DNA from: Okeania sp. SIO3B5
Lineage (GTDB): Bacteria; Cyanobacteriota; Cyanobacteriia; Cyanobacteriales; Microcoleaceae
Direction: 5' to 3'
Assembly: GCF_010692555.1 (NCBI RefSeq)
Contig: NZ_JAAHHG010000054.1
Span: 1 to 36,126 of the forward strand
Length of the DNA stretch: 36,126 bases
Each line of letters opens with the position of its first letter. Position 1 is the first letter of the stretch. This document shows positions 2,317 through 33,646 of the stretch, piece by piece. A program made the position numbers and the translations under genes. The notes below the pieces were generated by a model. The model did no database searches, was not told where the DNA came from, and was given only the letters and a program-made list of their open reading frames with translations.

Positions 2317-5300
2317 TTACTCTAAAGATGAAGCTTCATTTTTGGCTTTAGCCTCTGGATCAATATTTTGCCAAGTAGGAATGAGTGCTAGGCGATCGAG
2401 TTCTTTTGCTTTTTTATACTTTTCCACTGCTACCTCAATTTCTCCTTCTCTTGCTAATTTGAAACCTTCCTCTATTAGCTTTTCTGCCTCAGCTAATGAT
2501 TCTGCTCTTTTTATTGGGTTGAGGTTAAGGTCAGAATTCCATCGAAGTGCTTTCTCAAATATGGCAACTGCCTCTTTAATTTTTCCCTCCCTTGCCAGTT
2601 TCTCTCCTTCTATTATCCAACTACTAGCAGCCTTTTTCAAGCGAGAGTCAGTTTGGCAAATCTTGAGTTCCTCCAACTCCTGGGGGTGGGAAATTAGGTA
2701 ATCATTTAACCACTCGCAACCATAGTTAGTTAAATCTTCTATGGGTAAATATCTCCACAACTTTACAGTCTTGTCATCACTAGCAGAAGCAATAGTCTCT
2801 CCATCAGGACTAAAAGCTACACCTATGAACAGATTTTCATGTCCCTCAAAAGTCTGCAATAATTGTCCCTGACAATGCCATAATTTTACGGTCTTGTCGG
2901 CACTAGCAGAAGCGATCGTCTCTCCATGAGGACAAAAAGCTACATCTATAACTCTGTCCTGATGCCCGTTAAAAGTCTGCAGTAATTGTCCTTGACAGTT
3001 CCATAATTTCACAGTCTTGTCATCACTAGCAGAAGCAATAGTCTCTCCATCAGGACTAAATGCTACACCATAAACTTTATCCTGATGCCCCTCAAAAGTC
3101 TGCAATAATTTTCCCTGGCAGTTCCATAATTTCATAGTATTGTCAGCACTAGCAGAAGCAATAGTTTCTCCATCTGGGCTAAATGCTACACCATAAACTC
3201 TATTTTCATGTCCCACTAAAGTATACAATAATGTTCCCTGGCAGTTCCATAATTTCACGGTACTGTCATAACTAGCAGAAGCAATAATCTCTCCATCACA
3301 GCTAAATGCTACACCATAGACTTTATCCTGATGCCCCTCAAAAGTCTGCAATAATTGCCCCTGACAGTTCCACAATTTTACCGTTTTATCATCACTAGCA
3401 GAAGCAACAATCTTTCCATCAGGGCTAAATGCTACACCCCTTACCCATTCTTGATGCCCCTCAAAAGTTTGCAATAATTGACCCTGACAATGCCATAATT
3501 TCACAGTATTGTCAGCACTAGCAGAAGCAATATTTTTTCCATCAAGGCTAAATGCTACACCGTAGACTCGATTTTCATGCCCCTCAAAAGTTTGCAATAA
3601 TTGCCCATGACGATGCCACAATTTCACTGTTTTGTCATAACTAGCAGAAGCAACAGTCTTTCCATCAGAGCTAAATACTACACTGTTGACCTGATTTTCA
3701 TGCCCCACCAAAGTCTGCAATAATTTCCCTTGGTAGTTCCATAATTTCACGGTGTTGTCAGCACTAGCAGAGGCAATGGTCTTCCCATCAGAGCTAAATG
3801 CTACACTGTAAAGCTTTTTGTGATGATCTTCGAGGGTATGCAATAATTTCCCTTGGCAGTTCCATAATTTCACAGTGTTGTCATAACTAGCAGAAGCAAT
3901 AGTTTTTCCATCAGGGCTAAATGCTACAAATATGACCTTATCGTGATGCCCCCCAAAAGTTTGCAACAATTGCCCCTGACGGTTCCACAATTTAACCGTT
4001 TTGTCATCACTAGCAGAAGCAATGGTCTTTCCATCAGGGTTAAATGCTACACTGTTGACCTCATCTTGATGTTCGCTCAAAGTCTGCAGCAACTGCCCTC
4101 GATAGTTCCATAATTTCACCGTTTTGTCACGACTAGCAGAAACAATGGTTTCCCCATCAGGGCTAAACGCTACATTATAGACAGTCTCCTGGTGTCCAAC
4201 AAGAGTCTGCAACAATTGCCCCTGACGATTCCACAATTTCACTGTTTTGTCACGACTAGCAGAGGCAATGGTCTCTCCATCAGGACTAAATGCTACACTG
4301 TAAACTCTCTCCTCATGTCCCACAAGAGTCTGTAGCAACTGCCCCCGATAGTTCCATAATTTCACCGTTTTGTCATCACTAGCAGAGGCAATAGTCTTCC
4401 CATCAGGGCTAAATGCTACACCGTAGACTCTATCTTCATGTGCCTGGAGACGGTTAAATTCAATAAATTCATCTTTGTCATGTTTATAAATTACTGCTCC
4501 TAGAGCAGTTGTCACCTCAATAGCTTCGTCCATTGCTTCAAGTTTAGCATCTATGAGTTTTTGTCTTGCTTTCATGGCAGTCATCAACCCATCCCATTGC
4601 TTATCTAACATAGAGAGATTTTTGGCCTCATTTGCTAGATCGATAATAATAGTTTTTCCTTTTGACTGTCTACTTTCTCTTTGTCGAATAAATGCAACTA
4701 AATAATCATGTACCAACTGATAGCGGTTTGTTGGATTTTCTGGCAACAAAAATACTAAGCCAGAGTTAACAAAAATCTTTAATACTAGCTCCAAATTTTC
4801 TACATTAAAATCTACAGTTTCTTTCACCAACTCAGCCTTGGTTTTTTGTGGACGAGTATTATTTTCATCTGTTAATAATAGCAACACTAACCAAGCCAAT
4901 TTTTCATTTTCTCCTCCGCAATTGTTCACCACTTCTGCTAAATATCGCTCTACCAATTCTGCTTTAGGATGCTCTCCTAATTCTTGATATTTTCCGAGAG
5001 TAGTAATATTCTCTGTTTGTAGTTGTGCCCCCACAATCTGCAACTCAATGGGGCGAATTTCTCCTGACTCTTTAGCTAAGTCTGCAACCAACTTTTCTGT
5101 GAGTTCTGAATCTATTTGAAATTGAGAATTTGCAGTTAATTCTTTAATTACTAATTTTGCTTGTTCCTGGGAAAAATTTCCCAAGTAATAGAGAATATTT
5201 TTACTTAAAATATCATTGTTGATAGTATCGAAATTCCCCAAGCGATTAAGTTCTAATAAATGATGAATATAATCTTCTCGCAGAGATAAAATAATTTTCG

Positions 5301-7239
5301 TAAAGGGAATATTCAAACATTCTTGGAGAAACTGAGCAAATTCTCTTTTCTTGCCTGGTTCGGTATTTTCAAAGAAAAATTCCTCAAATTGGTCAAAAAT
5401 TATAACTGTGAGTAGATTTAATTCAGCGTTATTTTGTAACTGAGCTAAAATTGCCTCAGTCGAATTAAGAGTATCTGAAATAACTACTGATTTTTGAATA
5501 TTTTGTAGCTGCTCTGCTAATTTTTTTCCCAATCTTGAAATCCATTCAACATAAACTCGGTGCAAAACAAGCACTACAGAACGGGTTTCAATTAATTCTC
5601 GTTCTAAAGCAGGAATTAATCCTCCCTGCAAAATTGAACTTTTACCAACTCCTGATTGCCCATGAATAACTATTAATTTACACTGATTACTTCTCACTTT
5701 TTTTACCAATTTTTCTACATCAAACTGTCTTCCTGGTGCAGCAACTTCTTGAATAGCTTTTCTTGGATTCAGCTTAGGAAAAGTTGGATTAATATTTTTT
5801 TTTCTATGTCTCAAACGATTCGCGCCAATGAATGCTTGGAACCCAAATTCCTGTTCAATTTTTTGTTGATTTTGCTTAAATTCAAAAGCTATAAGATATT
5901 CTTTTTTTTGGAAATAAATCTCTCGTAATTCTTTGCATATAGAAAAATAAAGTTTTGGATCGTATTCAACTTTTGCTTCTGTAATAGCTTTATTTAGAAT
6001 TTCTATGGCTCCTTTAATATCACCCAAACATTTATTTGCTTTTCCCAAAGAAAATAAATACCAAACTTGACGATATAAACGTTCCCAATTTAAAATTATT
6101 TTGTCTTTGTCTGAGGTAGAATTAGATACATTCTTCAGGGTTTTGTTTAAAATTTTGAGAGCTTTTTGAGCATACTTTTTTGCTTCTGTGTAGTCATTTT
6201 TTGCTAGTTTAACTTCGGCAAACAAACCATCAGCCTGTGCTTCTCGGAATGGGTAAGAATAATTTTGATGTAATTCAATTGCTTTATTAGCGACATTCTC
6301 TAACTCATTCCAACGCTCCAAATATTGTAAAATCACTCCCCAAGCATTGATAAATTTGGCAACCAAGTCAGGGCGCTTAACTTTCTCAAAGGTTTCTACC
6401 GACTGCTGAAAATAGGAACAAGCTCGCTTGTAAGATTTTTCTTGTTCAGCCCGATGCCAAACTCCATAACTGCGCCACCACGAGCCTAGATAATAATTAA
6501 TGTGGGCTACCCGCACAGCATTATTCAGTTGTTGCCAAAGTTCGAGACTTCGCTGATAATGCTGTCGCGCCTTTTCTGTAGAATTATCTGCTGTCCTAGC
6601 TATAGCAAATTCTAGACTTGCCTCTAACTCCCGCTCTAAAATGACTCCCCGTTTTTCCAACTCTTTCTGTGCGCGTAACAACTCTTGATAACCAAATTCA
6701 CCTAACCCCAAGAAAGTATTATCTAAAAATATTCCTGCCCCACTCTCTAAAACTGTCTGATAAACAGACTCACTCGTCTGCCGAATAAAATCTATTAATT
6801 CATCAGTAGAAATTTCAAATACAGTCAAGCTTGCCCTATTTTCAAAATCAGGAATCAACTGAATAAATTTCCGTGACACCTCCTCATTTATCCATAACAC
6901 CATTGGGAAGTGAAAATTTTTTCTAAACTCGTCTAACACTAAACTCATTGAACGGAGTAACTCATCCACATCAACCACTGATTCCAACCCCCATACCATC
7001 AAAGCATCTGGCTGTTGATTTTTTAGACGTTCTTGGATAGTTGCATAAAGTGAACTTACTGACTTATCCAGTACCAACTCCTGCAAAACCCCAGAAAAAG
7101 ATTCCCGGAGTTGTGGAATTAGGCGATCGCGCTGACTCAGATAACTATAGCGCGCCAGAAACAACCTAAATTTTCCTTGAGACATTTCCATGCCTCTAAC
7201 TAACCTCTGCAATGATGCTCGATTATTAATTTCTGTCAT
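2317..7239 (-). CDS. STAND1: giant TPR-nSTAND1 NTPase-14xWD40 protein, soluble form
   Basis: A 1640-aa predicted signalling ATPase. Order: conserved N-terminal module of unknown function (~1-165); TPR-like helices (~185-460); an nSTAND1-type NTPase (~500-855) with Walker A GQSGVGKSS at 527-535, Walker B-like IIFDQFEEFF from 613, LSLRED at 651-656 and the YQLVHDYLVAFI winged-helix end at 840-851; a short linker; 14 WD40 units of exactly 41 residues (931-1504); the GCxWLxDYL motif; and a short TPR tail. STAND proteins switch from ADP- to ATP-bound oligomers when the sensor binds a ligand. The ligand here is unknown. There is no transmembrane segment. The start ATG overlaps the upstream ATPase gene by 14 nt, implying translational coupling. 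Compared with the paralogue at 9243-14897 it lacks the membrane helix and the last ~140 residues; its stop touches a repeat-element end. No enzymatic effector domain is recognised. Confidence 0.9.
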   Translation of the reverse strand: MTEINNRASLQRLVRGMEMSQGKFRLFLARYSYLSQRDRLIPQLRESFSGVLQELVLDKSVSSLYATIQERLKNQQPDALMVWGLESVVDVDELLRSMSLVLDEFRKNFHFPMVLWINEEVSRKFIQLIPDFENRASLTVFEISTDELIDFIRQTSESVYQTVLESGAGIFLDNTFLGLGEFGYQELLRAQKELEKRGVILERELEASLEFAIARTADNSTEKARQHYQRSLELWQQLNNAVRVAHINYYLGSWWRSYGVWHRAEQEKSYKRACSYFQQSVETFEKVKRPDLVAKFINAWGVILQYLERWNELENVANKAIELHQNYSYPFREAQADGLFAEVKLAKNDYTEAKKYAQKALKILNKTLKNVSNSTSDKDKIILNWERLYRQVWYLFSLGKANKCLGDIKGAIEILNKAITEAKVEYDPKLYFSICKELREIYFQKKEYLIAFEFKQNQQKIEQEFGFQAFIGANRLRHRKKNINPTFPKLNPRKAIQEVAAPGRQFDVEKLVKKVRSNQCKLIVIHGQSGVGKSSILQGGLIPALERELIETRSVVLVLHRVYVEWISRLGKKLAEQLQNIQKSVVISDTLNSTEAILAQLQNNAELNLLTVIIFDQFEEFFFENTEPGKKREFAQFLQECLNIPFTKIILSLREDYIHHLLELNRLGNFDTINNDILSKNILYYLGNFSQEQAKLVIKELTANSQFQIDSELTEKLVADLAKESGEIRPIELQIVGAQLQTENITTLGKYQELGEHPKAELVERYLAEVVNNCGGENEKLAWLVLLLLTDENNTRPQKTKAELVKETVDFNVENLELVLKIFVNSGLVFLLPENPTNRYQLVHDYLVAFIRQRESRQSKGKTIIIDLANEAKNLSMLDKQWDGLMTAMKARQKLIDAKLEAMDEAIEVTTALGAVIYKHDKDEFIEFNRLQAHEDRVYGVAFSPDGKTIASASDDKTVKLWNYRGQLLQTLVGHEERVYSVAFSPDGETIASASRDKTVKLWNRQGQLLQTLVGHQETVYNVAFSPDGETIVSASRDKTVKLWNYRGQLLQTLSEHQDEVNSVAFNPDGKTIASASDDKTVKLWNRQGQLLQTFGGHHDKVIFVAFSPDGKTIASASYDNTVKLWNCQGKLLHTLEDHHKKLYSVAFSSDGKTIASASADNTVKLWNYQGKLLQTLVGHENQVNSVVFSSDGKTVASASYDKTVKLWHRHGQLLQTFEGHENRVYGVAFSLDGKNIASASADNTVKLWHCQGQLLQTFEGHQEWVRGVAFSPDGKIVASASDDKTVKLWNCQGQLLQTFEGHQDKVYGVAFSCDGEIIASASYDSTVKLWNCQGTLLYTLVGHENRVYGVAFSPDGETIASASADNTMKLWNCQGKLLQTFEGHQDKVYGVAFSPDGETIASASDDKTVKLWNCQGQLLQTFNGHQDRVIDVAFCPHGETIASASADKTVKLWHCQGQLLQTFEGHENLFIGVAFSPDGETIASASDDKTVKLWRYLPIEDLTNYGCEWLNDYLISHPQELEELKICQTDSRLKKAASSWIIEGEKLAREGKIKEAVAIFEKALRWNSDLNLNPIKRAESLAEAEKLIEEGFKLAREGEIEVAVEKYKKAKELDRLALIPTWQNIDPEAKAKNEASSLE
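2758..4449 (-). repeat. WD40-encoding 123-bp tandem repeat array, 14 units
   Basis: Fourteen 41-codon units encode the STAND1 sensor (residues 931-1504). KLW recurs at residues 960, 1001, 1042 and so on to 1493, with no length change. Between units the DNA is close to identical apart from a few codons. Variation concentrates at unit positions 2, 5-7, 9-10, 25 and 34-35. Fourteen units would make two seven-bladed propellers. Confidence 0.92.
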
Positions 7240-8545
7240 CTTTTAACTCCGGTACATCTTTTAATATAGGATTGATGTCAAACCAAGACCCTTGTTCATC
7301 TTGATATTCATAGACAAACATACTCCGGATTAAAGTTTGGTATTCGTCATCTCCTGCCACTTTTTTTGTCCTAGCTACTCGGCGTAATAATTCCCATTCG
7401 TGGTCATCTATAGCTAAAAGTCGCTCATTGCGATAAGTTTTAATGACCTTGGCAACACTAGCACGGGAAATGGGAAGATATCCTTCTTCCATAATGGCAT
7501 CATTAACTATGCGCAATACATTTCTAACATGACCCCCACTGATGCGACATAAGTAATCTAAAGTTTCCTGACTATCAAAAATTTCGGTAACTTTTGCCAA
7601 ACGTTGCTGTGGATCTAACTCCGGAAACGCCCTTGCCAAAACTAATTGTCGAACTAACTCCATTCCTTCAGCACATTCATTACCGTCGCGTAACTGTGTC
7701 GCCACCATTGGCAATACCTGGGGACTTTTTTTAAATCGCTGGATTAGTGTTTCTAGGTCATTGGAAAACCTCAATGCCAGAGGAATGGTATAAATCACAT
7801 GACAATGCAGTGCTGCTAGTTGCTCCCCTCGGTCTACAAATAGATATTCTGGTTGAGTTTTGTTCTGATATTTGAGAGTATTATCAACTTTATCAAGGTT
7901 ATCAACAATGACGACTAATCCATTTTTGCTATACTGCAACAGTTTTTTGTTGGCAGGTTCAAACAATTCTTGGTTAATAGTTTCAATAATGCCACGGGTT
8001 CGGGGTCCGAGATATTCTCTGAGTTTACTACGAACTTCAGGACTAGCTTTGGCCTCGGCAGTTATTTTGCCTATTCCGAAAGAGAGTTCAATGTTAGATA
8101 TTTCCATTTCTGTCTGCAATAATTTGGCAGCTCCCTGGAGTATACCTTTCAGTCTGTTGGGTTCCTTTATCTTAAAATTTTTCAACTCCTCCAAACTTTC
8201 ACTGACTTGTTGGGCAATAGTTAGAAGGATATCGCCTACATCTACATCTCCCATTTCTAGGTTTTTGTCAGACTCAACGTAGACAACATGAAAGCCTTCT
8301 ATTTCCAACTGTTGCTTGAGTCGCCAAAGTTCTGTAGATTTGCCACAACCAATATGTCCAGTGAATAGTTGACAGGTAGGTCGGCCTGAAGACCAGAGAA
8401 TAGTCTTTTGTAATTTCTTGATAACTTGTCCTCCACGGACAGTGGAGAAGTCAATATAGTATCTATTGTCAATTTCTGCATTGTCTATAAATAGAGGAAT
8501 GCCAGGGTCTGTTGCCTGAAAAAAAGCTTTGGGATCTAAAGGCAT
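7226..8545 (-). CDS. ATPase1: P-loop NTPase partner of STAND1
   Basis: The 439-aa product is a predicted AAA-like/STAND-like ATPase. Walker A is GHIGCGKST (63-71) and a Walker B-like strand is LVVIVDNLDK (210-219). The C-terminal half has PISRASVAKVI and a conserved RRVAxTKKV segment that looks like a helical or winged-helix region. The extreme N terminus (AFFQATDPGIPLFIDN) is shared with the paralogue at 15172-16602. It is the first gene of a two-gene unit, and its 3' end overlaps the STAND1 start by 14 nt. The fixed pairing suggests that the small ATPase loads, regulates or signals through the STAND protein; that is inference. An AAGGAG lies ~20 nt upstream of the ATG, rather far. I know of no assigned function for this family. 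Confidence 0.85.
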   Translation of the reverse strand: MPLDPKAFFQATDPGIPLFIDNAEIDNRYYIDFSTVRGGQVIKKLQKTILWSSGRPTCQLFTGHIGCGKSTELWRLKQQLEIEGFHVVYVESDKNLEMGDVDVGDILLTIAQQVSESLEELKNFKIKEPNRLKGILQGAAKLLQTEMEISNIELSFGIGKITAEAKASPEVRSKLREYLGPRTRGIIETINQELFEPANKKLLQYSKNGLVVIVDNLDKVDNTLKYQNKTQPEYLFVDRGEQLAALHCHVIYTIPLALRFSNDLETLIQRFKKSPQVLPMVATQLRDGNECAEGMELVRQLVLARAFPELDPQQRLAKVTEIFDSQETLDYLCRISGGHVRNVLRIVNDAIMEEGYLPISRASVAKVIKTYRNERLLAIDDHEWELLRRVARTKKVAGDDEYQTLIRSMFVYEYQDEQGSWFDINPILKDVPELKDDRN

Positions 8546-8548
8546 AAT

Positions 8549-8587
8549 TATTTATGAGAAGCTACTCCTTAATTTTATCGCAGGGAA
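8549..8587 (-). promoter_or_regulatory. Leader block conserved upstream of both ATPase genes (copy 1)
   Basis: A ~39-bp block starting 3 bp upstream of the ATPase1 ATG (+ strand: tatttatgagaagcta, a 3-4 bp variable stretch, then ttaattttatcgcagggaa) recurs at 16786-16823 upstream of ATPase2. Conservation inside otherwise unrelated repeat-filled spacers suggests a promoter/5'-UTR function or simply shared ancestry of the cassettes. No clear -35/-10 pair was assigned. Confidence 0.5.
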
Positions 8588-8732
8588 TAGGGAGTGGGGG
8601 AGTAGGGGAGTGGGGGAGTAGGGGAGTAGGGGAGTAGGGAGTAGGGGAGTAGGGAGTAGGGAGTAGGGATTAGGGGAGTAGGGGAGTAGGGAGTAGGGGA
8701 GTAGGGGAGTAGGGAGTAGGGGAGTAGGGGAG
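8583..8732. repeat. ggggagta/gggagta tandem array upstream of ATPase1
   Basis: About 150 bp of mixed 7- and 8-bp units (gggagta, ggggagta, gtggggga). The same motif in reverse orientation is at 15119-15177, with a shared flank aggtgtctttatct, and again near 18262-18305. It lies directly upstream of the conserved leader of ATPase1. It has no gene content. Confidence 0.9.
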
Positions 8733-8789
8733 ATAAAGACACCTTTGATAAATGTTTGCTACAAATAGTTAGGCTATTTCTTAGGAGTC

Positions 8790-8916
8790 ATATCATGTCC
8801 GGTTGAATCTTACACTTTGGAGGAAGTAAGGCAGAAGGCAGGAGGCAGAAGGCAGAAGGGAAAGAAAGGTTTGAAGGAAAAAGGTTTTTTTATCACTGAT
8901 TATCCGGACATGATAT
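8790..8916. mobile_element. 127-bp inverted-repeat element with embedded heptamers (copy B)
   Basis: Ends are atatcatgtccggt (8790-8803) and tccggacatgatat (8903-8916), 13 of 14 bases inverted. The interior has ggcagaa/ggcagga heptamers, a T-run and atcactgattatc. It has the same length as copy A (2033-2159) but a different heptamer inside. It is non-coding and lies between the two ATPase-STAND cassettes. Confidence 0.75.
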
Positions 8917-9025
8917 AAATTCTCTTTTCTATCAAATGGACATTTCCTGTAAAATCTTTTCATTGCACTTAATTATTCGTAAGATTCTTTTTTGAAATTG
9001 GTATTATACCATTTTTTATGTCGTA

Positions 9026-9176
9026 ATATCAAATCCGGTAGCATCGGTATAATAAGATAGTTAATCAGAATTCAGAATCCAGAATCCAGAATTCAGAAGG
9101 GAAGAGAACTCAGAATTCTTTCCGCTCTGGGTGAAGAAGGAATATTTTTTTATACCGAATTAAACGGATTTGATAT
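9026..9176. mobile_element. 151-bp inverted-repeat element, related ends (atatcaaatccg)
   Basis: The left end atatcaaatccg (9026-9037) is matched by the inverted right end cggatttgatat (9165-9176). The interior holds cagaatc/cagaatt heptamers (about 9066-9098) and inner partial inverted repeats (cggtata / tatac cg). The organisation is the same as the 127-bp family but with different terminal bases, so probably a sister family. It is non-coding and ends 66 bp from the STAND2 stop. Confidence 0.65.
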
Positions 9177-9242
9177 AACTTATCTTTTTCGTCAAATAGG
9201 CATTTCCTATAAATTCTTTCTATCGACTCCAGCAAATAACCA

Positions 9243-12200
9243 TCAATCTCTCAAACTCTCCAACACCTCATCAGTAAATGGGTTTTCCCCTGCCTGAAGC
9301 GCTTTTATCCATTCTTGCCGTTGCGCTTTTTTCTTCTCATCATTAGCCCATTCTACATATACCTGAAAATCTGCGATCGCTCCTTCAATATCCCCCATTA
9401 ACGCCCTGGCAAATCCGCGACTGTCAACAATAGAGCCATTTTTAGGGTCAAGGGTGACTGCTTTCTCACAAGCAAACATAACATCAGCAGCTTTGTTATA
9501 AAGACTGCCATACCAACAAAGTGTACCCCAATTATGAGCAGAAATTTGAGTAGAGTAGATTTTTTCTGCTTGTTTGTAAGAGTTAATTGCTTCCTTAACT
9601 TTACCCTCTTTCACAAGCTTCCTCCCTTTATCCAAAAACGCATTTACTGCCTCATATCTAGCTTGAGCCTTAGCAATATTTTGCAGAGTAGGCATGAATG
9701 CTAGGTTGTCCAGTTTTGCTATTGCTTCTTCATACTTTTCTACTGTTGCTTCTTCTATAACTTCCTTCATCAGATTTTCTGCCTTAAATAATGATTCTGC
9801 AAGAACTTTTGGCTTGAGGTTGAGGTCTGGGTTCCATTTCAGTGCTTTCTTAAATGTGGCAACTGCTTCGTTAACCTTCCCCTCTCTTGCCAACTTCTCT
9901 CCCTCCATCACCCAACTACGAGAGGCTACTTTCTTGCGTCCGTAGGTTTGGCAAATCTCAAGTTCCTCTAACTCTTGGGGATGGGAAACCAGGTAATCCT
10001 CTAACCACTTGCAACCATGCTTGGTTAAATCGTCTATGCGCCAAGTCCACAATTTCACTGTATTGTCAGCACTAGCGGTAGCAATAGTCTCTCCATCCGG
10101 ACTAAATGCTACACTATAGATCTCATTCTCATGTCCGGTTAAAGTCTGCAATTCATTTCCCTTAAGGTTCCACAATTTCACTGTATCGTCAGTACTCGTA
10201 GAAGCAATAGTCTCACCATCCGGACTAAATGCTACACCAAAGACTGAATACTTATGCCCAGTTAGAGTCTGCAACTTCTTTCCCTTAAGGTTCCACAATT
10301 TCACTGTTTTGTCACTACTGGCAGAAGCAATAATCTCTCCATCGGGACTAAATGCTATACCATTAACCCAATTCTCATGGTGGGTGAGAGTCTGCAACTC
10401 CTTTCCCTTAAGGTTCCACAACTTCACTGTATTGTCACTACTCGTAGAAGCAATAGTCTCCCCATCCGGGCTAAATGCTACACCAAAGACTGAATACTTA
10501 TGCCCAGTTAGAGTCTGCAACTCCTTCCCCTTAAGGTTCCACAATTTCACTGTTTTGTCACTACTGGCAGAAGCAATAATCTCTCCATCAGGACTAAATG
10601 CTACACCATTAACCCAGTTCTCATGGCCGTTTAAAGTCTGCAATAATTTCCCCTGACGGTTCCACAATTTTACTGTATTGTCACTACTAGCAGAAGCAAT
10701 AATCTCTCCATCAGGACTAAATGCTACACCATTAACCCAATTATCATGGCCGTTTAAAGTCTCCAATAATTTCCCCTGACGGTTCCACAATTTCACTGTA
10801 TTGTCATGACTGGCAGAAGCAATCATCTCTCCATCGGGACTAAATGCTACACCTATGACCAAATCATCATGCCCCTGCAAAGTCTGCAACAACTGTTCCT
10901 TTTGCTTCCACAATTTCACTGTATTGTCACGACTAGCAGAAGCAATAGTCTCTCCATCAGGACTAAATACTACACCCATGATCGAATCATCATGCCCCTG
11001 CAAAGTCTGCAACAGTTGCCCCTTTTGGTTCCACAATTTCATTGTTTTGTCAGCACTAACAGTGGCAATAGTTTTTCCATCAGGGCTAAATGCTACAGAG
11101 TAGACCCAATTTTTATGCCCCCTCAGAGTCTGCAATAACTGCCACGACTTCCTCAAAGGAATTGGCCACAACTTCCCCTTTTGGCTCCACAATTTCACTG
11201 TTTTGTCAGCACTAACAGTGGCAATAGTTTTTCCATCAGGACTAAACGCTACATCCCTGACTTGATCCTTATGCCCAGTTAGAGTCTGCAACAGTTGTCC
11301 CTTTTGGCTCCATAATTTCACCGTGTTATCAACACTAGCAGTGGCAATAGTCTCTCCATCAGGACTAAATGCTAAACCCCTGACTTTATCCTTATGCCCA
11401 GTTAGAGTCTGCAACAGTTGCCCCTTTTGGCTCCATAATTTCACCGTGTTGTCAGCACTAGCAGAAGCAATAGTCTCTCCATCGGGACTAAATGCTACAC
11501 CCAAGACATGATCCTCATGCCCCACTAGAGTCTGCAATAAATCTCCCTGATGGTTCCACAATTTCACTGTTTTGTCATCACTAGCAGTGGCAATAGTCTC
11601 CCCATCAGGACTAAATGCTACACTATTTACCCACTGCTTATGGCCTAGCAGAGTCTGCAATAAATCTCCCTGACGGTTCCACAATTTCACCGTGTTGTCA
11701 CGACTAGCAGTGGCAATAGTCTCTCCATCGGAGCTAAATGCTACACCCACAACCCAATGCTTATGCCCCTGGAGATTGTTAAAGTCTCTAAATTCTTCTT
11801 CTTTGTTACGTTTGTAAACTGCTACTCGGAGAACATCTCTAATTTTGCTACCATTTTTACCAGTTAGATCAAATTTACCATCTACTTGTTTTTGTATAGC
11901 TTTCATAGCAGTCATCAACCCATGCAATCGATCGCCTGACATCGATAAGGCTCTGGACTCATTTGCCGTAGTAATAATAGTTTGTTTTTCTGCTCGTCTA
12001 CTTTCCCTGTGTTCCCTCAAGGCAAATATTGTCATCCCTCCTGCCAATACTGCCATCCCCAATGCAGCACCAACCGAAACTCTAACTATCCGCTTCTGCA
12101 ACTGCTGTCGTTTTGACTTTTCCTGTTTCAGTTCTTCTAATATTTCAGGGCCTTTCCTTTGTCGAATAAAAGCAACTAAATAATCATGAACTAACTGATA

Positions 12201-14897
12201 ACGATTTGCTGGTTTTTCCCGTAACAAAAATACTAAACGAGACTTGACAAAAATCTTTAGTACTAACTCTAACTCTTTCTCTTGAAACTGACTTTCTTTC
12301 ACCAATTCAGTCTGAGTTTTTAGTGGACGAGTATTATTTTCATCGGTTAACAACATCAAAACCAACCAAGCCAAATTTTCATTTTCTTCACCACAGTCTT
12401 TCACTACTGATGCTAAATATCGGTTTACTAATTCTGCCTTGGGATAATCTCCTAATTCTTGATATTTTTCCACAGTGGTAATATTCTCTGTCTGTAGTTG
12501 TGCTCCCATAATTTGTAACTCAATCGGACGAATATCTTCTGTCTCCTTGTCTAAGTCTTCTACCAATTTTTCTGTCAATTTTGAATCGATTTTAAATTGA
12601 GAGTTTTCGGTTAATTCTTTAATGACTGATTTTGCCTGATTCTGGGAAAAATTTCTCAATTCATAACGAATATTTTTACTTAAAATATCATTGTTGATTG
12701 TTTCTAAGTTAGCTAAAGAATTAAATTCTAATAAATAATGAATATAATCCTCTCGCAGGGATAAAACAATTTTCACAAAAGGAATTTCCAAACATTCTTG
12801 CAGAAACTGAGCAAACTCTCTTTTCTGCCCAGGCTCTGAATTAACAAAGAAAAATTCCTCAAATTGATCGAAAATAATAACCGTCAGTAAATTGAATTCA
12901 GCATTATTTCGTAACTGAGAAAAAATTGCCTCAGTCGAATTAAGCATTTGTGAATTAACTGCTAATTGGGGAATTGTTTTGAGTTTTTTAGCTAAACTTT
13001 CCCCCAATTCTGAAATCCAATTAACATAAACTCGCTGCAAAACTACTACTACGTTACGGGTATCAATTGATTTTTTTTCTAAAACAGGTATTAATCCAGC
13101 CTGCAAAATCGAACTTTTACCAACTCCTGATTGTCCATGAATCACTATCAGTTTATAGTCAGGACGACTAATTCTTTCTAGCAATTCTTCTACATTAAAT
13201 TGACGCCCAGATGCAGAAATTTCTTGAGTAAATTTTCGTCGATTAAGTTGAGGTAAAGCCTGGTTGGTATTTGGTTTTCTATACCCCAAACGATTTGCAC
13301 CGATAAATGCTACAAACCCAAATTGTTGTTCTATTTTTTGTCGTTCTCGCTTCAGTTCAAAAGCTGTTAAATATTCCTTTTGTTGGTAATATATTTTTCG
13401 TAATTCTGTGAGAATATAAATATAAAATTCAGTTCTGTATTCAGGTTTAGTCGTATTTTTTGCTTGCTCAAAATTGGCTATTGATGCTTCAAAATTACCT
13501 AATTTTTTTTCGGCTTTTGCTAGAGTAAATAAATATTTTCCTAGATGAGAATAGCGCTCCAAATCTAAAGTAATTTCGTCTTTTTCTGAGCTAGGAGGAG
13601 ATACAGCATCTAGAGTTTTGTTGAAAATTTCTATGGCATTTTGAGCAAGTTTTTTTGCTTGTCTATAATGATTTTTTGCCAGTTCAAATTCTGCTAGAAA
13701 ACCATAAGCACGAGCGAGTCGAAAAGATGTTTGATGAACTCCACTCATTCCCCCCTGGGAAAGGCGATCCCCCCTCATTCCCCCCTGGGAAAGGCGATCC
13801 CCCCTCATTCCCCCCTTGGTAAGGGGGGAGGAAGAAGAAGAAGGGGACTTTTTTGTTACTAAGAGTAGCTCAACACCATCCAACTCCCCCCTTTCCAAGG
13901 GGGGTTGGGGGGGATCAAAAACTTTTATTGCTCTTTTGGCAACAGTTTCTAACTCATCCCAACGCCCTAAAGTTTGCAGAACTTCTCCCCAAGCATTGAT
14001 AAATTTAGCAACTAAGTCTGGGCGGTTAACTGTCTCAAAGCCTTCTACCGACTGCTGAAAATATGAACAAGCTCTCTCACAAGCCATATTTTTCTCAACC
14101 CGATGCCTAAGTGCATAACTACGCCACCATAACCCCAGATAATGATAAGTGTGAGCTACTCGCACCGAGTTGTTAATTTGTTGCCAAAGTTCGACACTGC
14201 GTTGATAATGCTCTAGTGCTACTTCGGTAGAATTATCGGTTGCCCTGCCTAAAACAAATTCCAAATTTGCTTCTAATTCAGGCTCTAAGGTAACTTCTCG
14301 CTTTAACAATTCTTGCCTTGCGCCAACCAACTCTTGATAAGCACACTCTCCCAAACCAAGGGCAGTATCATCTAAAAATATTCCTGCCCCACTTTCTAAA
14401 ACTTTCTGATAAACACTCTCACTGGTGTGCTGAATAAAATCAATTAATTCCTGAGTTCCAGTTTCAAAAACGGTCAGACTTGACCAATTTTCAAAGTCAG
14501 GAATTAACCGAATAAACTTACGAGAAATTTCTGCATCAACCCATAAAACTATGGGAAAAGGGCAATTTTTTCTAAACTCCTCGCGAACTAAACTCATTGC
14601 GACCAGCAATTTATCAATATCTCTAACAAACTCCAAACCCCAAACCATCAAAGCATTTGGTTGTTGGTCTCTTAATCGTTTTCTGATAGTTGCATAAAGT
14701 TCATCGACAGACTCATCCAACTGCAACTGTGCCAAGTCTTCAGAAAAAGATTCCCGGAGTTGTGAAATTAGGCGATCGCGCTGGCTCAGATTATTGCACT
14801 GTGCCAGAAATAGGCGAAATTGTCCTTGAGACATTTCCATGCCTCGGATTAATTTATGCAATAATTTTTGATGATTAACTTCCCTGTAACTAGGCAT
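9243..14897 (-). CDS. STAND2: giant TPR-nSTAND1 NTPase-14xWD40 protein with membrane helix
   Basis: A 1884-aa paralogue of STAND1 with the same order: N-terminal module (~1-170), TPRs (~190-520), nSTAND1 NTPase (~550-910; Walker A GQSGVGKSS 590-598, IIFDQFEEFF from 674, LSLRED 712-717, YQLVHDYLVAFI 900-911), a coiled-coil-like charged stretch (917-936), a hydrophobic helix 940-960 (VSVGAALGMAVLAGGMTIFA), 14 WD40 units (1042-1626), GCKWLEDYL and a full C-terminal TPR region (~1660-1884). Odd points: residues ~327-387 are a low-complexity insert made from an intergenic repeat (RGDRLSQGGM twice); WD40 unit 5 carries an extra 11 residues (about 1242-1252); units 10-11 and 12-13 are a recent two-blade duplication. 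The upstream gene is ATPase2, separated by 274 bp of repeats. The helix suggests membrane anchoring; topology and function are inference. Confidence 0.9.
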   Translation of the reverse strand: MPSYREVNHQKLLHKLIRGMEMSQGQFRLFLAQCNNLSQRDRLISQLRESFSEDLAQLQLDESVDELYATIRKRLRDQQPNALMVWGLEFVRDIDKLLVAMSLVREEFRKNCPFPIVLWVDAEISRKFIRLIPDFENWSSLTVFETGTQELIDFIQHTSESVYQKVLESGAGIFLDDTALGLGECAYQELVGARQELLKREVTLEPELEANLEFVLGRATDNSTEVALEHYQRSVELWQQINNSVRVAHTYHYLGLWWRSYALRHRVEKNMACERACSYFQQSVEGFETVNRPDLVAKFINAWGEVLQTLGRWDELETVAKRAIKVFDPPQPPLERGELDGVELLLVTKKSPSSSSSPLTKGGMRGDRLSQGGMRGDRLSQGGMSGVHQTSFRLARAYGFLAEFELAKNHYRQAKKLAQNAIEIFNKTLDAVSPPSSEKDEITLDLERYSHLGKYLFTLAKAEKKLGNFEASIANFEQAKNTTKPEYRTEFYIYILTELRKIYYQQKEYLTAFELKRERQKIEQQFGFVAFIGANRLGYRKPNTNQALPQLNRRKFTQEISASGRQFNVEELLERISRPDYKLIVIHGQSGVGKSSILQAGLIPVLEKKSIDTRNVVVVLQRVYVNWISELGESLAKKLKTIPQLAVNSQMLNSTEAIFSQLRNNAEFNLLTVIIFDQFEEFFFVNSEPGQKREFAQFLQECLEIPFVKIVLSLREDYIHYLLEFNSLANLETINNDILSKNIRYELRNFSQNQAKSVIKELTENSQFKIDSKLTEKLVEDLDKETEDIRPIELQIMGAQLQTENITTVEKYQELGDYPKAELVNRYLASVVKDCGEENENLAWLVLMLLTDENNTRPLKTQTELVKESQFQEKELELVLKIFVKSRLVFLLREKPANRYQLVHDYLVAFIRQRKGPEILEELKQEKSKRQQLQKRIVRVSVGAALGMAVLAGGMTIFALREHRESRRAEKQTIITTANESRALSMSGDRLHGLMTAMKAIQKQVDGKFDLTGKNGSKIRDVLRVAVYKRNKEEEFRDFNNLQGHKHWVVGVAFSSDGETIATASRDNTVKLWNRQGDLLQTLLGHKQWVNSVAFSPDGETIATASDDKTVKLWNHQGDLLQTLVGHEDHVLGVAFSPDGETIASASADNTVKLWSQKGQLLQTLTGHKDKVRGLAFSPDGETIATASVDNTVKLWSQKGQLLQTLTGHKDQVRDVAFSPDGKTIATVSADKTVKLWSQKGKLWPIPLRKSWQLLQTLRGHKNWVYSVAFSPDGKTIATVSADKTMKLWNQKGQLLQTLQGHDDSIMGVVFSPDGETIASASRDNTVKLWKQKEQLLQTLQGHDDLVIGVAFSPDGEMIASASHDNTVKLWNRQGKLLETLNGHDNWVNGVAFSPDGEIIASASSDNTVKLWNRQGKLLQTLNGHENWVNGVAFSPDGEIIASASSDKTVKLWNLKGKELQTLTGHKYSVFGVAFSPDGETIASTSSDNTVKLWNLKGKELQTLTHHENWVNGIAFSPDGEIIASASSDKTVKLWNLKGKKLQTLTGHKYSVFGVAFSPDGETIASTSTDDTVKLWNLKGNELQTLTGHENEIYSVAFSPDGETIATASADNTVKLWTWRIDDLTKHGCKWLEDYLVSHPQELEELEICQTYGRKKVASRSWVMEGEKLAREGKVNEAVATFKKALKWNPDLNLKPKVLAESLFKAENLMKEVIEEATVEKYEEAIAKLDNLAFMPTLQNIAKAQARYEAVNAFLDKGRKLVKEGKVKEAINSYKQAEKIYSTQISAHNWGTLCWYGSLYNKAADVMFACEKAVTLDPKNGSIVDSRGFARALMGDIEGAIADFQVYVEWANDEKKKAQRQEWIKALQAGENPFTDEVLESLRD
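10044..11774 (-). repeat. WD40-encoding 123-bp tandem repeat array, 14 units
   Basis: KLW recurs at residues 1071, 1112, 1153, 1194, 1235, then 1287 and every 41 residues to 1615. The period is broken once by an 11-codon insertion after unit 5. The unit pairs 10-11 and 12-13 (about 10143-10634) are nearly identical, indicating a recent 246-bp duplication. The number of units equals that of STAND1. Confidence 0.92.
13737..13919 (-). repeat. Intergenic C/G-rich repeat inserted in frame in STAND2
   Basis: About 180 bp inside the STAND2 TPR region carries the gatccccc / aagggggga repeat type found between genes (compare 2165-2245). It includes a 30-bp unit repeated in tandem at 13746-13775 and 13776-13805, with a third partial copy. 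It is translated as a Pro/Gly/Ser-rich linker. STAND1 has no counterpart at this point, and the reading frame is kept on both sides. Confidence 0.8.
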
Positions 14898-15171
14898 AAA
14901 TTTTTGACTCTATGTTAATTACTAACCAACCTCAAACCTGTATTATTTCCTACTAGACTGACACACCTTAAATGGGGTGATGGGGTGATGGGGGGATGGG
15001 GTGATGGGGGGATGGGGTGACGAAAAAAGCGCTCTGCACTATTTTAGGTGAAACGGTCCACTACTAGACTGACACAGCTAAAACTGTGCAATAGATTGTT
15101 ATTTCTAGGTGTCTTTATCTCCCCTACTCCCCCACTCCCCCACTCCCCTACTCCCCCACTCCCCTACTCCA
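14898..15171. repeat. Repeat-filled spacer between ATPase2 and STAND2
   Basis: No gene is seen. The spacer holds gggggatg/ggggtgat 8-mers (about 14976-15021), a tagactgacaca sequence at about 14955 and again within 15057-15112, and an inverted ggggagta array (15119-15177) that overlaps the 3' end of ATPase2. The stretch 15057-15112 (tagactgacaca...gtgcaatagatt...ctaggtgtctt) recurs at about 18205-18262. The insertion of these repeats separates two genes that overlap by 14 nt in the sister cassette. Confidence 0.75.
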
Positions 15172-16602
15172 CTACTCCCTTATATTTAACTCCGGCGCAT
15201 CTTTCAAGAGAGGATTAATTTCAAACCAAGGGCCAAGTTCATCTTGATACTCATAAACAAACATACTCCGAATTAAAATTTGGTATCCATCATCTCCCGT
15301 TACTTTTTTTGTCTGAGCAACTCGGCGCAATAATTCCCACTCATGGTCATCTACAGCTAAAAGTCGCTGATTGCGATAAGTTCTAATTACATTGGCAACA
15401 CTAGCGCGGGAGATGGGAAGATCCCCTTCTTCCATAATAGCCTCATTAACTATTCGCAATACATTCCTCACATGACCACCACTGAAACGACATAAGTAAT
15501 CTAAAGTTTCCTGACTATCAAATATTTCGGTAACTTTTGCCAAACGTTGTTGTTCATCTAATTCTGGAAATGCTCTCGCCAACACTAACTGTCGCATTAA
15601 CTTCATTCCTTCAGCACATTCACTACCATCACGCAACTGTGTCGCCACCATTGGCAATATTTGAGGGTCTTTCTTAAATCTTTGAGTTAATGTGTCGTAG
15701 TCATTGGAAAACCTCAGTGCCATAGGAAGAGTATAAATCAAATGACAATGAAGACTCATCAATTGTTCGCCCCGGTCAACAAATAGATATTCTGGTTGAG
15801 GTCGTCCCCAAGGTTTAGGTGAGCTATCAACTTTTTCCAGGTTGTCAACTATAACCACTAATCCTTTTTTACCATACTGTTTCAGCTTTTCGTTAGCGGG
15901 TTCGAGCAATTCTTTGTTAATAGTTTCAATAATTCTGCTGGTGCGGGGTCCGAGATATTCTCTGAGTTTACTACGAAGTTCGGGACTAGCTTTTGCTTGG
16001 GCAGTAATTTTACCAATTCCTAAAGCTACAAATTCTAATCCTTTTTCGTCAGCTTTGACTTGACCAACTCCAGGCAAACCAACTTCTGCTGAAAATGAAC
16101 CCTCACTGCTAGCTGCTACTTTACCCACACCGGGAATATTAGCTTCTGCAGAGAGTTCAATTTCTGTGTGCAATAATTTTGCAGCTCCCTGAAGTAGACC
16201 TTTTAATCCTTTTGGTTCCTCCAGGTTAAGTTTTTCCAACTTCTCCAAACTTCTGCTGACCTGTTGTGCAATAGTTAGAAAAATATCACCTATATCCACA
16301 TCTCCCATTTCTAGGCTTTTGTCAGATTCAAAATAGACAACGTGAAAGCCTTCCGTTTCTAACTGTTGTTTGAGTTGCCATAATTCTGTAGACTTACCAC
16401 AACCAATATGTCCGGTGAATAGTTGGCAAGTAGGTTGGTCTGAAGACCAGAGAGTAATAGTATTTTTTAATTTTTTTATAACTTTTCCTCCACGCACAGT
16501 CGAGAAGTCAATGTAGTATTTCTTGTCAATTTCTACATTATCCATGAACAGAGGAATGCCAGGGTTTGTTGCCTGAAAAAAGGCTTGAACATCTATGGTC
16601 AT
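15172..16602 (-). CDS. ATPase2: P-loop NTPase partner of STAND2
   Basis: The 476-aa paralogue of ATPase1. Walker A is GHIGCGKST (64-72) and the Walker B-like strand is LVVIVDNLEK (248-257). The two proteins align end to end except for about 37 extra residues at ~151-195, which contain two copies of a SAExxxPGVGxVxA motif 20 residues apart (SAEANIPGVGKVAA and SAEVGLPGVGQVKA); this insert accounts for the size difference. The ATG at 16602 is chosen because the N-terminal QAFFQATNPGIPLF aligns with ATPase1. It is preceded directly by cagttat heptamers with no adjacent Shine-Dalgarno; the nearest GGAGG is ~40 nt upstream. It is presumably transcribed toward STAND2 across a 274-bp spacer. Function unknown; a regulatory NTPase for the STAND partner is inference. 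Confidence 0.85.
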   Translation of the reverse strand: MTIDVQAFFQATNPGIPLFMDNVEIDKKYYIDFSTVRGGKVIKKLKNTITLWSSDQPTCQLFTGHIGCGKSTELWQLKQQLETEGFHVVYFESDKSLEMGDVDIGDIFLTIAQQVSRSLEKLEKLNLEEPKGLKGLLQGAAKLLHTEIELSAEANIPGVGKVAASSEGSFSAEVGLPGVGQVKADEKGLEFVALGIGKITAQAKASPELRSKLREYLGPRTSRIIETINKELLEPANEKLKQYGKKGLVVIVDNLEKVDSSPKPWGRPQPEYLFVDRGEQLMSLHCHLIYTLPMALRFSNDYDTLTQRFKKDPQILPMVATQLRDGSECAEGMKLMRQLVLARAFPELDEQQRLAKVTEIFDSQETLDYLCRFSGGHVRNVLRIVNEAIMEEGDLPISRASVANVIRTYRNQRLLAVDDHEWELLRRVAQTKKVTGDDGYQILIRSMFVYEYQDELGPWFEINPLLKDAPELNIRE

Positions 16603-23336: not shown

Positions 23337-23915
23337 ATGGTAGCAATCCCCAAACCAGTTCCAATGACTCCCCAAGAATACTTTGACTGGGAGGAGAAAC
23401 AACCGATTAAATATGAATATATGAACGGTCAAGTTTTTGCCATGACTGGGGGAACTATTCCTCATAATGACATTGCAGTTAATTTAACAGTGGCTTTAAA
23501 AAATCATCTGCGCGGTAAAGGGTATAAAGTATTAATGGCAGATGTCAAATTAGGAGTATCCGAAAAAGGACCTTTTTATTATCCTGATGTCATGGTAACT
23601 TGCGATGAAAGAGACCGACGTGCTATTAAAATTATTTATTATCCTTGCTTAGTCGTAGAGGTTTTATCTCCAGGAACCGAAGCTTTTAACAGGGGTAAAA
23701 AGTTTAAAAATTATCGCAATATTTCTACTTTAAAAGAATACGTTTTAATTGATGCGCGAGAGATGACAGTGGAGTGTTTTCGGCCTAATGAAAATGGTGT
23801 TTGGGAACTTTATAATTATGGAGAAGGTGACGAAGTAACCTTAACTTCTGTAGATTTTAGCTTTCCCATTGAGATGCTTTATGAAGACGTAGTTTTAGAG
23901 GAAGTAGAAGAGTAG
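23337..23915 (+). CDS. Uma2 family (DUF820) PD-(D/E)xK-like protein
   Basis: The 192-aa product is of the Uma2/DUF820 family but from a different branch than the copy at 1283. Visible features: MTPQEYFDWEEKQPIKYEYMNGQV at the N terminus, FYYPDVMVTCD with the metal-ligand Asp, the LVVEVLSPGTE strand with a conserved Glu, and KFKNYRNISTLKEYVLID with the catalytic-type Lys. Length is normal and an AGGAG ribosome-binding site precedes the ATG. Such proteins are plausible nucleases whose biological substrate is unknown; cyanobacteria carry dozens. It stands alone between a broken regulator and an orphan toxin/immunity-like pair. Confidence 0.9.
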   Translation: MVAIPKPVPMTPQEYFDWEEKQPIKYEYMNGQVFAMTGGTIPHNDIAVNLTVALKNHLRGKGYKVLMADVKLGVSEKGPFYYPDVMVTCDERDRRAIKIIYYPCLVVEVLSPGTEAFNRGKKFKNYRNISTLKEYVLIDAREMTVECFRPNENGVWELYNYGEGDEVTLTSVDFSFPIEMLYEDVVLEEVEE

Positions 23916-32257: not shown

Positions 32258-33646
32258 ATGAATAGTTTTGAAGATGTCTTAAATTGGGCAGATAATTTGA
32301 TATTTAATCAAACAGGAAAAAATCTCTCAGAGGTTCAGAAAAAAATACTAGAAGGTACTTGGCAAGGAAAAAAATATTGGCAAATAGCTGAAGAACTCCA
32401 TTGCAGTGAATCTGATGTCAAAAAAAAAGCTGCTAAATTATGGAAAAAATTCCGTAAAGACTTAGGAGAAGACCTGAATAAATCTAATTTTCGTTATAAG
32501 GTAGAGAAAAAATACCGTGTTTCTCAAGTTTCCTCTTCCGGTGACTGTTTATTACAAGAAATTGATATTAATATTTGTGGTCAATTCATACAAAATATTA
32601 AAGATACACAAGCGCGATCGCCATCTTCTCCTGACACTCCTCAAAATAAAAATAAATCCCCAATAATTAATCTCAAAGACGCACCGAAATTAACTTGCAA
32701 TTTTCATCGCACATCAGAAGTATCTACCCTCAAACAATGGATATTAGAAAGCAACATTCACCTCATAACAATCTACGGATTAAGTAGAATCGGTAAAAGT
32801 ACCCTTGCTCGTCAACTTATAGAACAAATTAAAACAGAATTTGACTATATTTTTTGGAAAAGTCTTAACCATATTCTCCAACTTTCAACTCTAGAAACCG
32901 AGCTTAAACAATTTTTTTCCCAATCCAAAACAACTCCATTATCCACAATTATTGATTATTTTAGTGATTATCGTTGCCTAGTCATTCTTGATGATGTAGA
33001 GAATATTTTTGAAAGCGGTGAATTAGCAGGTAACTACTTACCAGACTATAAAAACTACGGCAAATTTTTCAAGCAAATTGCCACTTCATCTCATCAAAGT
33101 TGTCTAATTCTCATCAGTTGGGAAAAATCTAGAGAAATAGCTACATTAGAAACAGAAAATCATCCAATAAAAACTTTACATCTGAAAGGATTAGAAAAAG
33201 CAGAAGCCACAAAAATCTTGGCAACAAAAGCAAAAGAATTAACAGATGAGGAAAAATGGTCAGAATTAATAACTGTTTATCAAGGTCATCCCACCTGGTT
33301 AAATATTATCGCTGCAACAATAAAGGAATTTTACAATGGTAGAGTTTCTCAGTTTTTAGCCGAGCAAAATGAAATTTATTTAGATAACTTAGAGCCAATT
33401 TTAGAATCTCACTTCGAGCGTTTATCTCCATCAGAAAAAAAAGTCGCTTACTGGTTAGCTACTCAAAATGAACCAGTAAATATTTGCCAAAGACCTGCCA
33501 ATAGTGAATTATCCAAATCAGACTTTTTAGACTCCATGAAATCTTTATGCAGGCGCAGCTTAATTGAGAAAAAAGAATTAGAAAACCAATCTGTATTTGA
33601 CCTTAATCCTGTATTTAAACAATATATTGTGACAAAACAGAAATAG
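32258..33646 (+). CDS. HTH-NB-ARC STAND ATPase without sensor domain
   Basis: A 462-aa protein. The N-terminal ~90 residues (LSEVQKKILEGTWQGKKYWQIAEELHCSESDVKKKAAKLWKKF) form a helix-turn-helix like the N-terminal HTH of vWA-MoxR-associated and cyanobacterial NB-ARC proteins. After a Ser/Pro linker comes an NB-ARC ATPase (~150-330): Walker A GLSRIGKST at 174-182 (unusual SR instead of GG), LVILDDVE at 241-248, LISWEKSREI, then helical and winged-helix parts ending LCRRSLIEKKELENQSVFDLNPVFKQYI. Close relatives I recall continue into WD40 or TPR sensors; this one stops after the winged helix. The 3' end is duplicated at 34443-34598. It may be a regulator, or a truncated signalling ATPase whose sensor is elsewhere. 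It starts at an ATG ~200 bp from the divergent gene. Confidence 0.8.
   Translation: MNSFEDVLNWADNLIFNQTGKNLSEVQKKILEGTWQGKKYWQIAEELHCSESDVKKKAAKLWKKFRKDLGEDLNKSNFRYKVEKKYRVSQVSSSGDCLLQEIDINICGQFIQNIKDTQARSPSSPDTPQNKNKSPIINLKDAPKLTCNFHRTSEVSTLKQWILESNIHLITIYGLSRIGKSTLARQLIEQIKTEFDYIFWKSLNHILQLSTLETELKQFFSQSKTTPLSTIIDYFSDYRCLVILDDVENIFESGELAGNYLPDYKNYGKFFKQIATSSHQSCLILISWEKSREIATLETENHPIKTLHLKGLEKAEATKILATKAKELTDEEKWSELITVYQGHPTWLNIIAATIKEFYNGRVSQFLAEQNEIYLDNLEPILESHFERLSPSEKKVAYWLATQNEPVNICQRPANSELSKSDFLDSMKSLCRRSLIEKKELENQSVFDLNPVFKQYIVTKQK

Follow-up and report, generated by a model that had tools for sequence, protein, structure and literature searches.

Cognate pairing of a small AAA+ ATPase with a predicted pseudo-AAA+ module that heads STAND-WD40 and other large proteins in cyanobacteria

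A 36,126-nucleotide (nt) stretch of the Okeania sp. SIO3B5 genome (contig NZ_JAAHHG010000054.1; hereafter, the window) carries two tandem cassettes on the minus strand, in each of which a gene for an ATPase precedes one for an nSTAND1-WD40 protein. Cassette 1 consists of ATPase1 (439 amino acids; 7226-8545) and STAND1 (1640 amino acids; 2317-7239), and cassette 2 of ATPase2 (476 amino acids; 15172-16602) and STAND2 (1884 amino acids; 9243-14897). We find that the small ATPase belongs to a family whose usual partner is the N-terminal module (N-module) of the downstream-encoded protein. The results that come directly from computation are that the genes are paired and in which orientation, that ATPase and module co-diverge one-to-one as cognates, both fold predictions, and the interchangeability of the rest of gene 2. 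Our preferred reading, held with slightly better than even confidence, is that the pair forms a cognate switch of active AAA+ and pseudo-AAA+ plugged into interchangeable sensor/output proteins, with the window carrying an NLR-like version. Most likely, filamentous cyanobacteria use it to mount a regulated response to invaders or to stress.

Genomic distribution and pairing

We drew 59 genomes evenly across the phylum and counted ATPase matches with E < 1e-20 as strong. The resulting tally of 66 ATPases excludes six rows with weak matches (E between 6.7e-6 and 7.8e-4) and counts each of two fragment pairs as one gene; all 81 module matches were kept. The ATPase occurs in 19 genomes and the module in 18, every one of them among those 19 (Fisher 2.9e-14, a value inflated by relatedness). 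For genomes of the same class as the source (n = 24), 17 encode both, one encodes the ATPase only, and six encode neither. At the gene level, 61 of the 66 ATPases are followed on the same strand, within 2.5 kb, by a module gene, an adjacency that holds for ATPases with as little as 27% identity to ATPase1. The five unpaired members comprise two at contig ends of the source genome, those at G038:C110 and G002:C1:2522306, and one in genome G011. Viewed from the module side, 21 of the 81 matches do not stand directly behind an ATPase; these include bare modules of ~165 amino acids, the second of the two modules within one protein, and two modules just upstream of an ATPase, at L188 and L191. Separately, bare module genes of ~150-170 amino acids were noted in several genomes, at L182-L186 and on contig C246 of the source genome (L038:6409-6864), with no family ATPase in the stretch examined.

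The source genome (11.06 Mb in 789 contigs) encodes nine members of the ATPase family. Seven precede a gene that starts with a relative of the N-module, and the other two lie at contig ends. We also analyzed a named-relative sample from other species, consisting of the best 80 of at least 162 confirmed relatives. Across all samples, 129 of 146 distinct ATPases are paired with a module gene, and the two genes overlap or abut in 48 of these 129 pairs, with an overlap of exactly 4 nt in 17. Together with the strong cognate co-divergence described below, these counts uphold the proposal of the initial annotation, made from the window alone, that the pair is a functional unit.

Outside the phylum, the search covered plasmid, phage, and viral records. 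An ATPase on a plasmid of Acidisarcina (Acidobacteriota) overlaps by 4 nt a downstream frame that is longer than the annotated TPR gene and that gave a weak module match (3.7e-7, in a search over the open reading frames of four loci); the pair seems to be present on this Acidobacteriota plasmid as well. Two later plasmid searches added no further phylum. Other plasmid copies exist, some on conjugative plasmids, and a cassette on an Acaryochloris plasmid sits between two integrase genes, near NACHT and HicAB genes.

Co-divergence of ATPase and module

For the 126 of 129 pairs with modules longer than 100 residues, ATPase and module distances correlate with a mirror-tree r of 0.85, compared with a maximum of 0.19 in 500 shuffles. 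When partners were shuffled within genomes (53 pairs), the observed r was 0.775, and none of 1000 shuffles reached it (mean 0.14, maximum 0.30); therefore, each ATPase tracks its own module. In the ATPase tree, all nSTAND1 partners fall into one group of 95 rows (87 nSTAND1, 5 bare modules, and 3 TPR-labelled). The remaining partner types occupy separate branches, several of which are long and of unsure placement.

Fold and motifs of the ATPase

The small ATPase is predicted to be an AAA+ protein that belongs to the Orc1/Cdc6-TnsC-STAND branch and retains its catalytic motifs. It displays the features of that branch, namely an AAA+ core, Walker A and B, GGxxR (which we take to be sensor-2-like), a lid, and a winged helix. 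The assignment comes from a VIA-align comparison of a single predicted model, that of ATPase1, which is Orc1/Cdc6-TnsC-like with a winged-helix-like C-terminus; it is extended to ATPase2 at 79% identity. GHIGCGKST is common to both window ATPases. In ATPase2, Walker A lies at 16387-16413, VDNLE at 15835-15849, and SGGHVR at 15466-15483, all on the minus strand. Walker A is kept in 144 of the 146 distinct ATPases. The structure alignment used 71 of 81 listed full-length ATPases plus the two window sequences, and one broken copy (L084) was retained as pieces.

The window ATPases fall below all Pfam curated cut-offs listed. The KAP family (PF07693) scored 16.7 bits for P0002 and 17.2 bits for P0004 against a cut-off of 20, which a distant fused relative (L122) passed at 34.4 bits. 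Among the nine source-genome ATPases, weak matches at E ≤ 0.01 were obtained to KAP (seven), Sll1717 (four), and DS41_1 (four); for P0002, no NCBIfam match was present at 0.01.

The N-module as a predicted pseudo-AAA+ domain

The conserved element of the large partner is the N-module, a stretch of ~150 residues with a fold of its own, located on the minus strand at 6805-7239 in STAND1 and at 14448-14897 in STAND2 (profile 3.5e-78, the sequence being itself a row of that profile; fold taken from the STAND1 model). Its predicted structure is an AAA+ fold devoid of Walker A, and neither Walker A nor any GK[ST] occurs in any of 126 modules. At the Walker B position, 97 of 101 modules carry Gly, a count that is indicative only, as the search pattern accepted no residue but G, D, S, or N at this place and 25 modules escaped it. 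We predict that the N-module is a dead AAA+ domain that has lost its P-loop. The structure alignment used 61 of 74 listed stretches plus the two window sequences. A known Pfam domain was considered and rejected, as neither window module gave a match above cut-off. Sequence paralogy between module and ATPase was likewise rejected (hhalign probability 0.3%); what joins the two is fold.

Partners of the ATPase and exceptional loci

The remainder of gene 2 varies widely. Across the 66 ATPases from the 59 genomes, the partner is an nSTAND1 protein in 26 cases, a longer protein lacking nSTAND1 in 31, a bare module in four, and none in five; an alternative tally counts 62 ATPases, given that four nSTAND1 loci duplicate sequences of the named-relative sample. 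TPRs were found in all eight of the 31 longer partners scanned with Pfam; for two of the 31, the gene runs off a contig end. One TPR partner (L168) also gave nSTAND3/NACHT-like matches, and an nSTAND1 partner in the source genome (L031) has an extra dynamin domain. For the 81 full-length ATPases of the named-relative sample, the partners are nSTAND1 proteins (66), TPR-labelled proteins (two, one cut at a contig end and the other a split gene), bare modules (two), and none within limits (11).

A STAND domain as the constant partner of the ATPase was rejected, with nSTAND1 present for only 26 of 66 ATPases as opposed to the module for 61. The initial annotation had proposed that the STAND NTPase requires a second small P-loop ATPase. 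As worded, this does not stand: the constant partner is the N-module, which also heads proteins other than nSTAND1 or stands alone. Its own refuting condition, a small ATPase found mostly without the STAND partner, applies in the evenly drawn sample, where an nSTAND1 partner is missing for 40 of the 66 ATPases. ATPase and N-module are co-conserved well beyond this locus.

Several loci have unusual architectures. In the source genome, the end of contig C613 and the beginning of contig C90 align to adjoining parts of the Okeania locus L053 (94% over the ATPase stretch and 87-94% over C90), so they probably form one cassette of an ATPase, a bare 206-amino acid module, and a histidine kinase-receiver-WD40 protein. 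A similar layout occurs in genomes G033 and G042, where an ATPase and a bare module are accompanied by proteins of 2,087 and 2,078 amino acids, respectively, the former with Ser/Thr-kinase and histidine-kinase domains. Locus L125 (genome G024) encodes two ATPases, of which the second carries a fused TIR domain (TIR_2, 1.1e-32), followed by a partner with two tandem modules, a TPR-like region, and nSTAND1, such that ATPases and modules are matched in number. On a Nostoc plasmid (L122), an ATPase relative with an intact Walker A forms the C-terminal part of a protein encoded beside a MoxR gene and near a formylglycine-enzyme gene; the first part of this protein is annotated as SAV_2336 N-terminal-related and appears vWA-like by eye.

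A hydrophobic segment between nSTAND1 and WD40 was found in 46 of 71 sufficiently long partners, including STAND2 (12018-12080) but not STAND1; therefore, some versions of the partner may be membrane-bound.

Proposed mechanism

In the usual NLR, the N-terminus is an effector or adaptor, and in ORC and clamp loaders, inactive and active subunits sit together. Under the proposed switch, gene 1 would supply a live AAA+ ATPase and gene 2 a large protein headed by the dead AAA+ domain. By analogy with ORC and clamp loaders, the dead domain may dock next to the cognate ATPase, giving a mixed AAA+ assembly whose state depends on ATP, and the docked module would relay this state, in one direction or the other, between the assembly and the remainder of gene 2. 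For the version in the window, WD40 and TPR repeats would act as the sensor and nSTAND1 as a nucleotide-driven oligomer switch. Because the putative pseudo-AAA+ domain takes the effector/adaptor slot at the NLR N-terminus, sensing would bring the modules together in clusters, and the ATPase would thereby be recruited or set free. It could then act itself or carry an effector; in one locus, it is fused to a TIR domain.

Bacterial NLR-like proteins are usually viewed as chains that hold sensor, switch, and effector in one. In the present case, a dead AAA+ domain appears to fill the effector slot and to be linked to a live ATPase of its own, and this ATPase-module couple recurs with quite different outputs. 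Somewhat more tentatively, and with confidence short of even, we propose that this is a novel class of signaling chassis in bacteria: a cognate active AAA+ and pseudo-AAA+ adaptor, an ORC-like couple outside replication, would be plugged into NLR-like STAND-WD40, TPR, dynamin, TIR, and histidine-kinase proteins to drive or gate them, and a cell would hold several insulated pairs. If true, this would provide a rule by which missing effectors or regulators of cyanobacterial STAND-WD40 proteins could be found, place ORC-like active/pseudo-ATPase logic outside replication, and offer seven natural cognate pairs in one genome for studying pair insulation.

Evidence against the switch and alternative explanations

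A number of observations weigh against the proposed switch. On the structural side, Foldseek TM-scores for the N-module are only 0.3-0.5, and its fold matches tie within 1 Z between dynein, NSF, and the proteasome ATPase on the one hand and Sir3, TnsC, and ORC on the other. Since the profile comparison shows no sequence kinship between module and ATPase, the argument for mixed docking is one from fold. The cassettes of the window show no visible effector domain. Pairing also has exceptions: genome G011 encodes an ATPase without any module, and 17 of the 146 ATPases are unpaired, some at contig ends. Four of these lie within 300 nt of a contig end (L032, L034, L059, and L065). Three are accounted for by distance, strand, or fusion, with the partner 3.65 kb downstream (L074), the partner on the opposite strand (L082), or the ATPase itself fused (L122). 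Six look solo (L054, L057, L068, L070, L075, and L096), with the contig stopping 0.3 kb further on for L070 and 1.5 kb for L068. Carriage by phages or viruses found no support, with no match in 50,697 phage records and none confirmed in a scan of viral contigs. As a separate observation, the solo ATPases at L054, L070, and L130 adjoin a shikimate dehydrogenase-like gene, and no module was seen in the stretch examined.

The remaining point of this kind concerns a fixed genomic position. In a neighbor survey of 135 loci, an ftsQ-like gene, read from sequence and a ftsZ-like neighbor instead of a domain scan, was present in 25, some of which are one record counted twice. The ATPase adjoins this gene and is divergently transcribed from it in 24 of 25 loci, at no more than 1 kb in 22 (L132 is 7 kb away), and the arrangement spans Nostocales, Microcoleus, Okeania, Laspinema, and others. 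Cassettes of this group include L102-L105, L107-L110, L113, L114, L118, L119, L077, L078, L085, L088, and L099, among others; variants consist of an ATPase alone (L057) or an ATPase with a bare module (L150 and L151). Outside the ftsQ neighborhood, the sole widely recurrent neighbor cluster was a single-linkage mix that joins WD40 pieces with kinases and receivers (36 loci), an observation that counts in favor of the switch.

Sequence variation points in two directions. Within each large protein of the window, the WD40 units are highly repetitive (mean identity 0.70 in STAND1 and 0.68 in STAND2) and vary most at positions 3-5, 7, 23, 32, and 41 in both, a pattern that fits an arms race. Between orthologues, using a crude domain split, WD40 and nSTAND1 identities differed by no more than 0.07 in each of the eight comparisons of the ftsQ type, and in the four others WD40 identity was below nSTAND1 by 0.01, 0.15, 0.15, and 0.28. 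Such WD40 conservation on the ftsQ side is unlike an arms-race sensor and counts against the switch as a defense device. The ATPase was the most conserved part in all 12 comparisons apart from one tie (L105/L107, equal to nSTAND1 at 0.99).

These data bear most directly on the alternative that the pair is a vertically inherited, non-immune regulatory device for cell division, development, or stress signaling, in which it gates WD40, TPR, or kinase outputs. We judge this unlikely, though far from negligible: the divergent ftsQ-side position recurs across many genera, and kinase outputs appear in the C613/C90 and L053 cassette and in the third gene at G033, with a similar layout at G042. Plasmid copies, some conjugative and one between two integrase genes, are at odds with vertical inheritance of such a device, as are two fusions of the ATPase, one to TIR and the other, encoded beside MoxR with a formylglycine-enzyme gene nearby, to a vWA-like region. 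These same two fusions lend some weight to the conflict role suggested by the initial annotation, but the fixed ftsQ-side locus is unlike that of an ordinary mobile defense gene. Because one group occupies this fixed place, a defense role for the pair is no more than plausible.

It is also conceivable, but improbable in our estimate, that the ATPase is a keeper (inhibitor or chaperone) that holds its partner off in toxin-antitoxin style instead of serving as the output arm. The upstream position of the ATPase and the frequent overlaps fit tight stoichiometry, and co-divergence fits a cognate keeper; however, solo ATPases and solo modules both exist, and the TIR fusion puts an effector on the ATPase side. 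Operon hitchhiking, in which neighbors are kept together without physical interaction, is very improbable in view of the 61/66 adjacency among ATPases down to 27% identity and of within-genome co-divergence reached by 0 of 1000 shuffles.

Comparison with known systems

Fungal NACHT/NB-ARC-WD40 proteins of the HET-E type provide a comparison for STAND-WD40 proteins. Like these and other nSTAND1 STAND NTPases, the window proteins combine a central STAND NTPase with long, near-identical WD40 arrays that vary at few positions; they differ in that the N-terminus is a predicted pseudo-AAA+ domain with an upstream cognate ATPase and not an effector or prion-like domain. Compared with Orc1/Cdc6, TnsC, clamp loaders, and Sir3, the partner here is a STAND or TPR protein, and searches against PDB chains gave no convincing sequence kinship (best E 0.026 and 0.053; Sir3 0.21).

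A further parallel is the iSTAND subtype of MoxR-vWA ternary conflict systems, in which, according to PMC7159879, an active AAA+ ATPase works with a partner whose P-loop NTPase domain is catalytically dead. A live ATPase, a dead-NTPase partner, and variable further domains are common to both, and L122 joins the ATPase to a vWA-like region behind MoxR. The dead domain of the window type is distinct from the one outlined there in being N-terminal, ~150 amino acids long, and AAA+ of the ORC/Sir3-like kind. The window locus does not qualify as a ternary system, as no MoxR or vWA domain was found in the ten other window open reading frames scanned or among recurrent neighbor clusters of the 135 loci.

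Likeness to established defense proteins is slight. The matches of source-genome ATPases to KAP, Sll1717-family, and DS41_1 profiles are weak, and the window ATPases lie under the Pfam cut-offs. DS41_1 is an NCBIfam anti-phage protein family (best of the four matches, 1.2e-4); its name suggests that it corresponds to DS-41, a validated anti-phage system according to PMC13092281. In PADLOC-DB, the best value for the window ATPases was 0.0039 (PDC-S20), and the large proteins matched in the WD40 part only, apart from STAND2 nSTAND1 against PbeC (1.7e-5, over 50 residues). Other family ATPases matched weakly: L036 to PDC-S20 (3.7e-6) and L169 to VakA (2.2e-7), mad8 (8.1e-6), and PifA (6.5e-5). 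Among the titles and abstract openings listed in searches of the open-access literature, we found no description of a swappable two-gene front end of active and dead AAA+. The parts belong to known superfamilies, and we regard the pair as a variant of STAND-centered NTP-dependent systems.

Layout of the window cassettes and neighboring genes

Translations and Pfam bore out the composition read in the initial annotation, from the four open reading frames and their motifs to nSTAND1, the TPRs, the 14 WD40 units, and the 14-nt overlap of ATPase1 and STAND1 (7226-7239). The large proteins share GQSGVGKSS, FDQFEEF, LSLRED, and HDYL, and PF20703 places both in the nSTAND1 class with 120.3 bits for STAND1 (4696-5733) and 126.8 bits for STAND2 (12171-13208) against a cut-off of 27.1. 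TPRs were found in both by Pfam scan, including the STAND1 TPR region at 5800-6732 (TPR_12, 8.1e-15), a short TPR tail in STAND1, and C-terminal TPRs in STAND2. The 14 WD40 units of 41 amino acids span 2722-4443 in STAND1 and, with one 11-amino acid insertion, 10014-11768 in STAND2; both arrays belong to the highly repetitive bacterial WD40 class. The cassettes are paralogous along their whole length, with identities of 79% (ATPase), 68% (N-module), 60% (TPR), 70% (nSTAND), and 66% (linker-WD40), and among the loci compared, their genes are closest to Trichodesmium and Okeania records.

The STAND2 TPR region contains an in-frame insertion of 61 amino acids (13731-13913) with GGMRGD repeats, which looks like the translation of a dispersed repeat. 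Between STAND2 and ATPase1 (8583-8732), the 8-base unit GGGAGTAG is repeated in tandem in ~18 copies. Genes of the Uma2 family (putative endonucleases) flank the cassettes on either side (1283-1891 and 23337-23915), and a second, unrelated STAND-like gene at 32258-33646 combines a LuxR-type GerE helix-turn-helix with NB-ARC.

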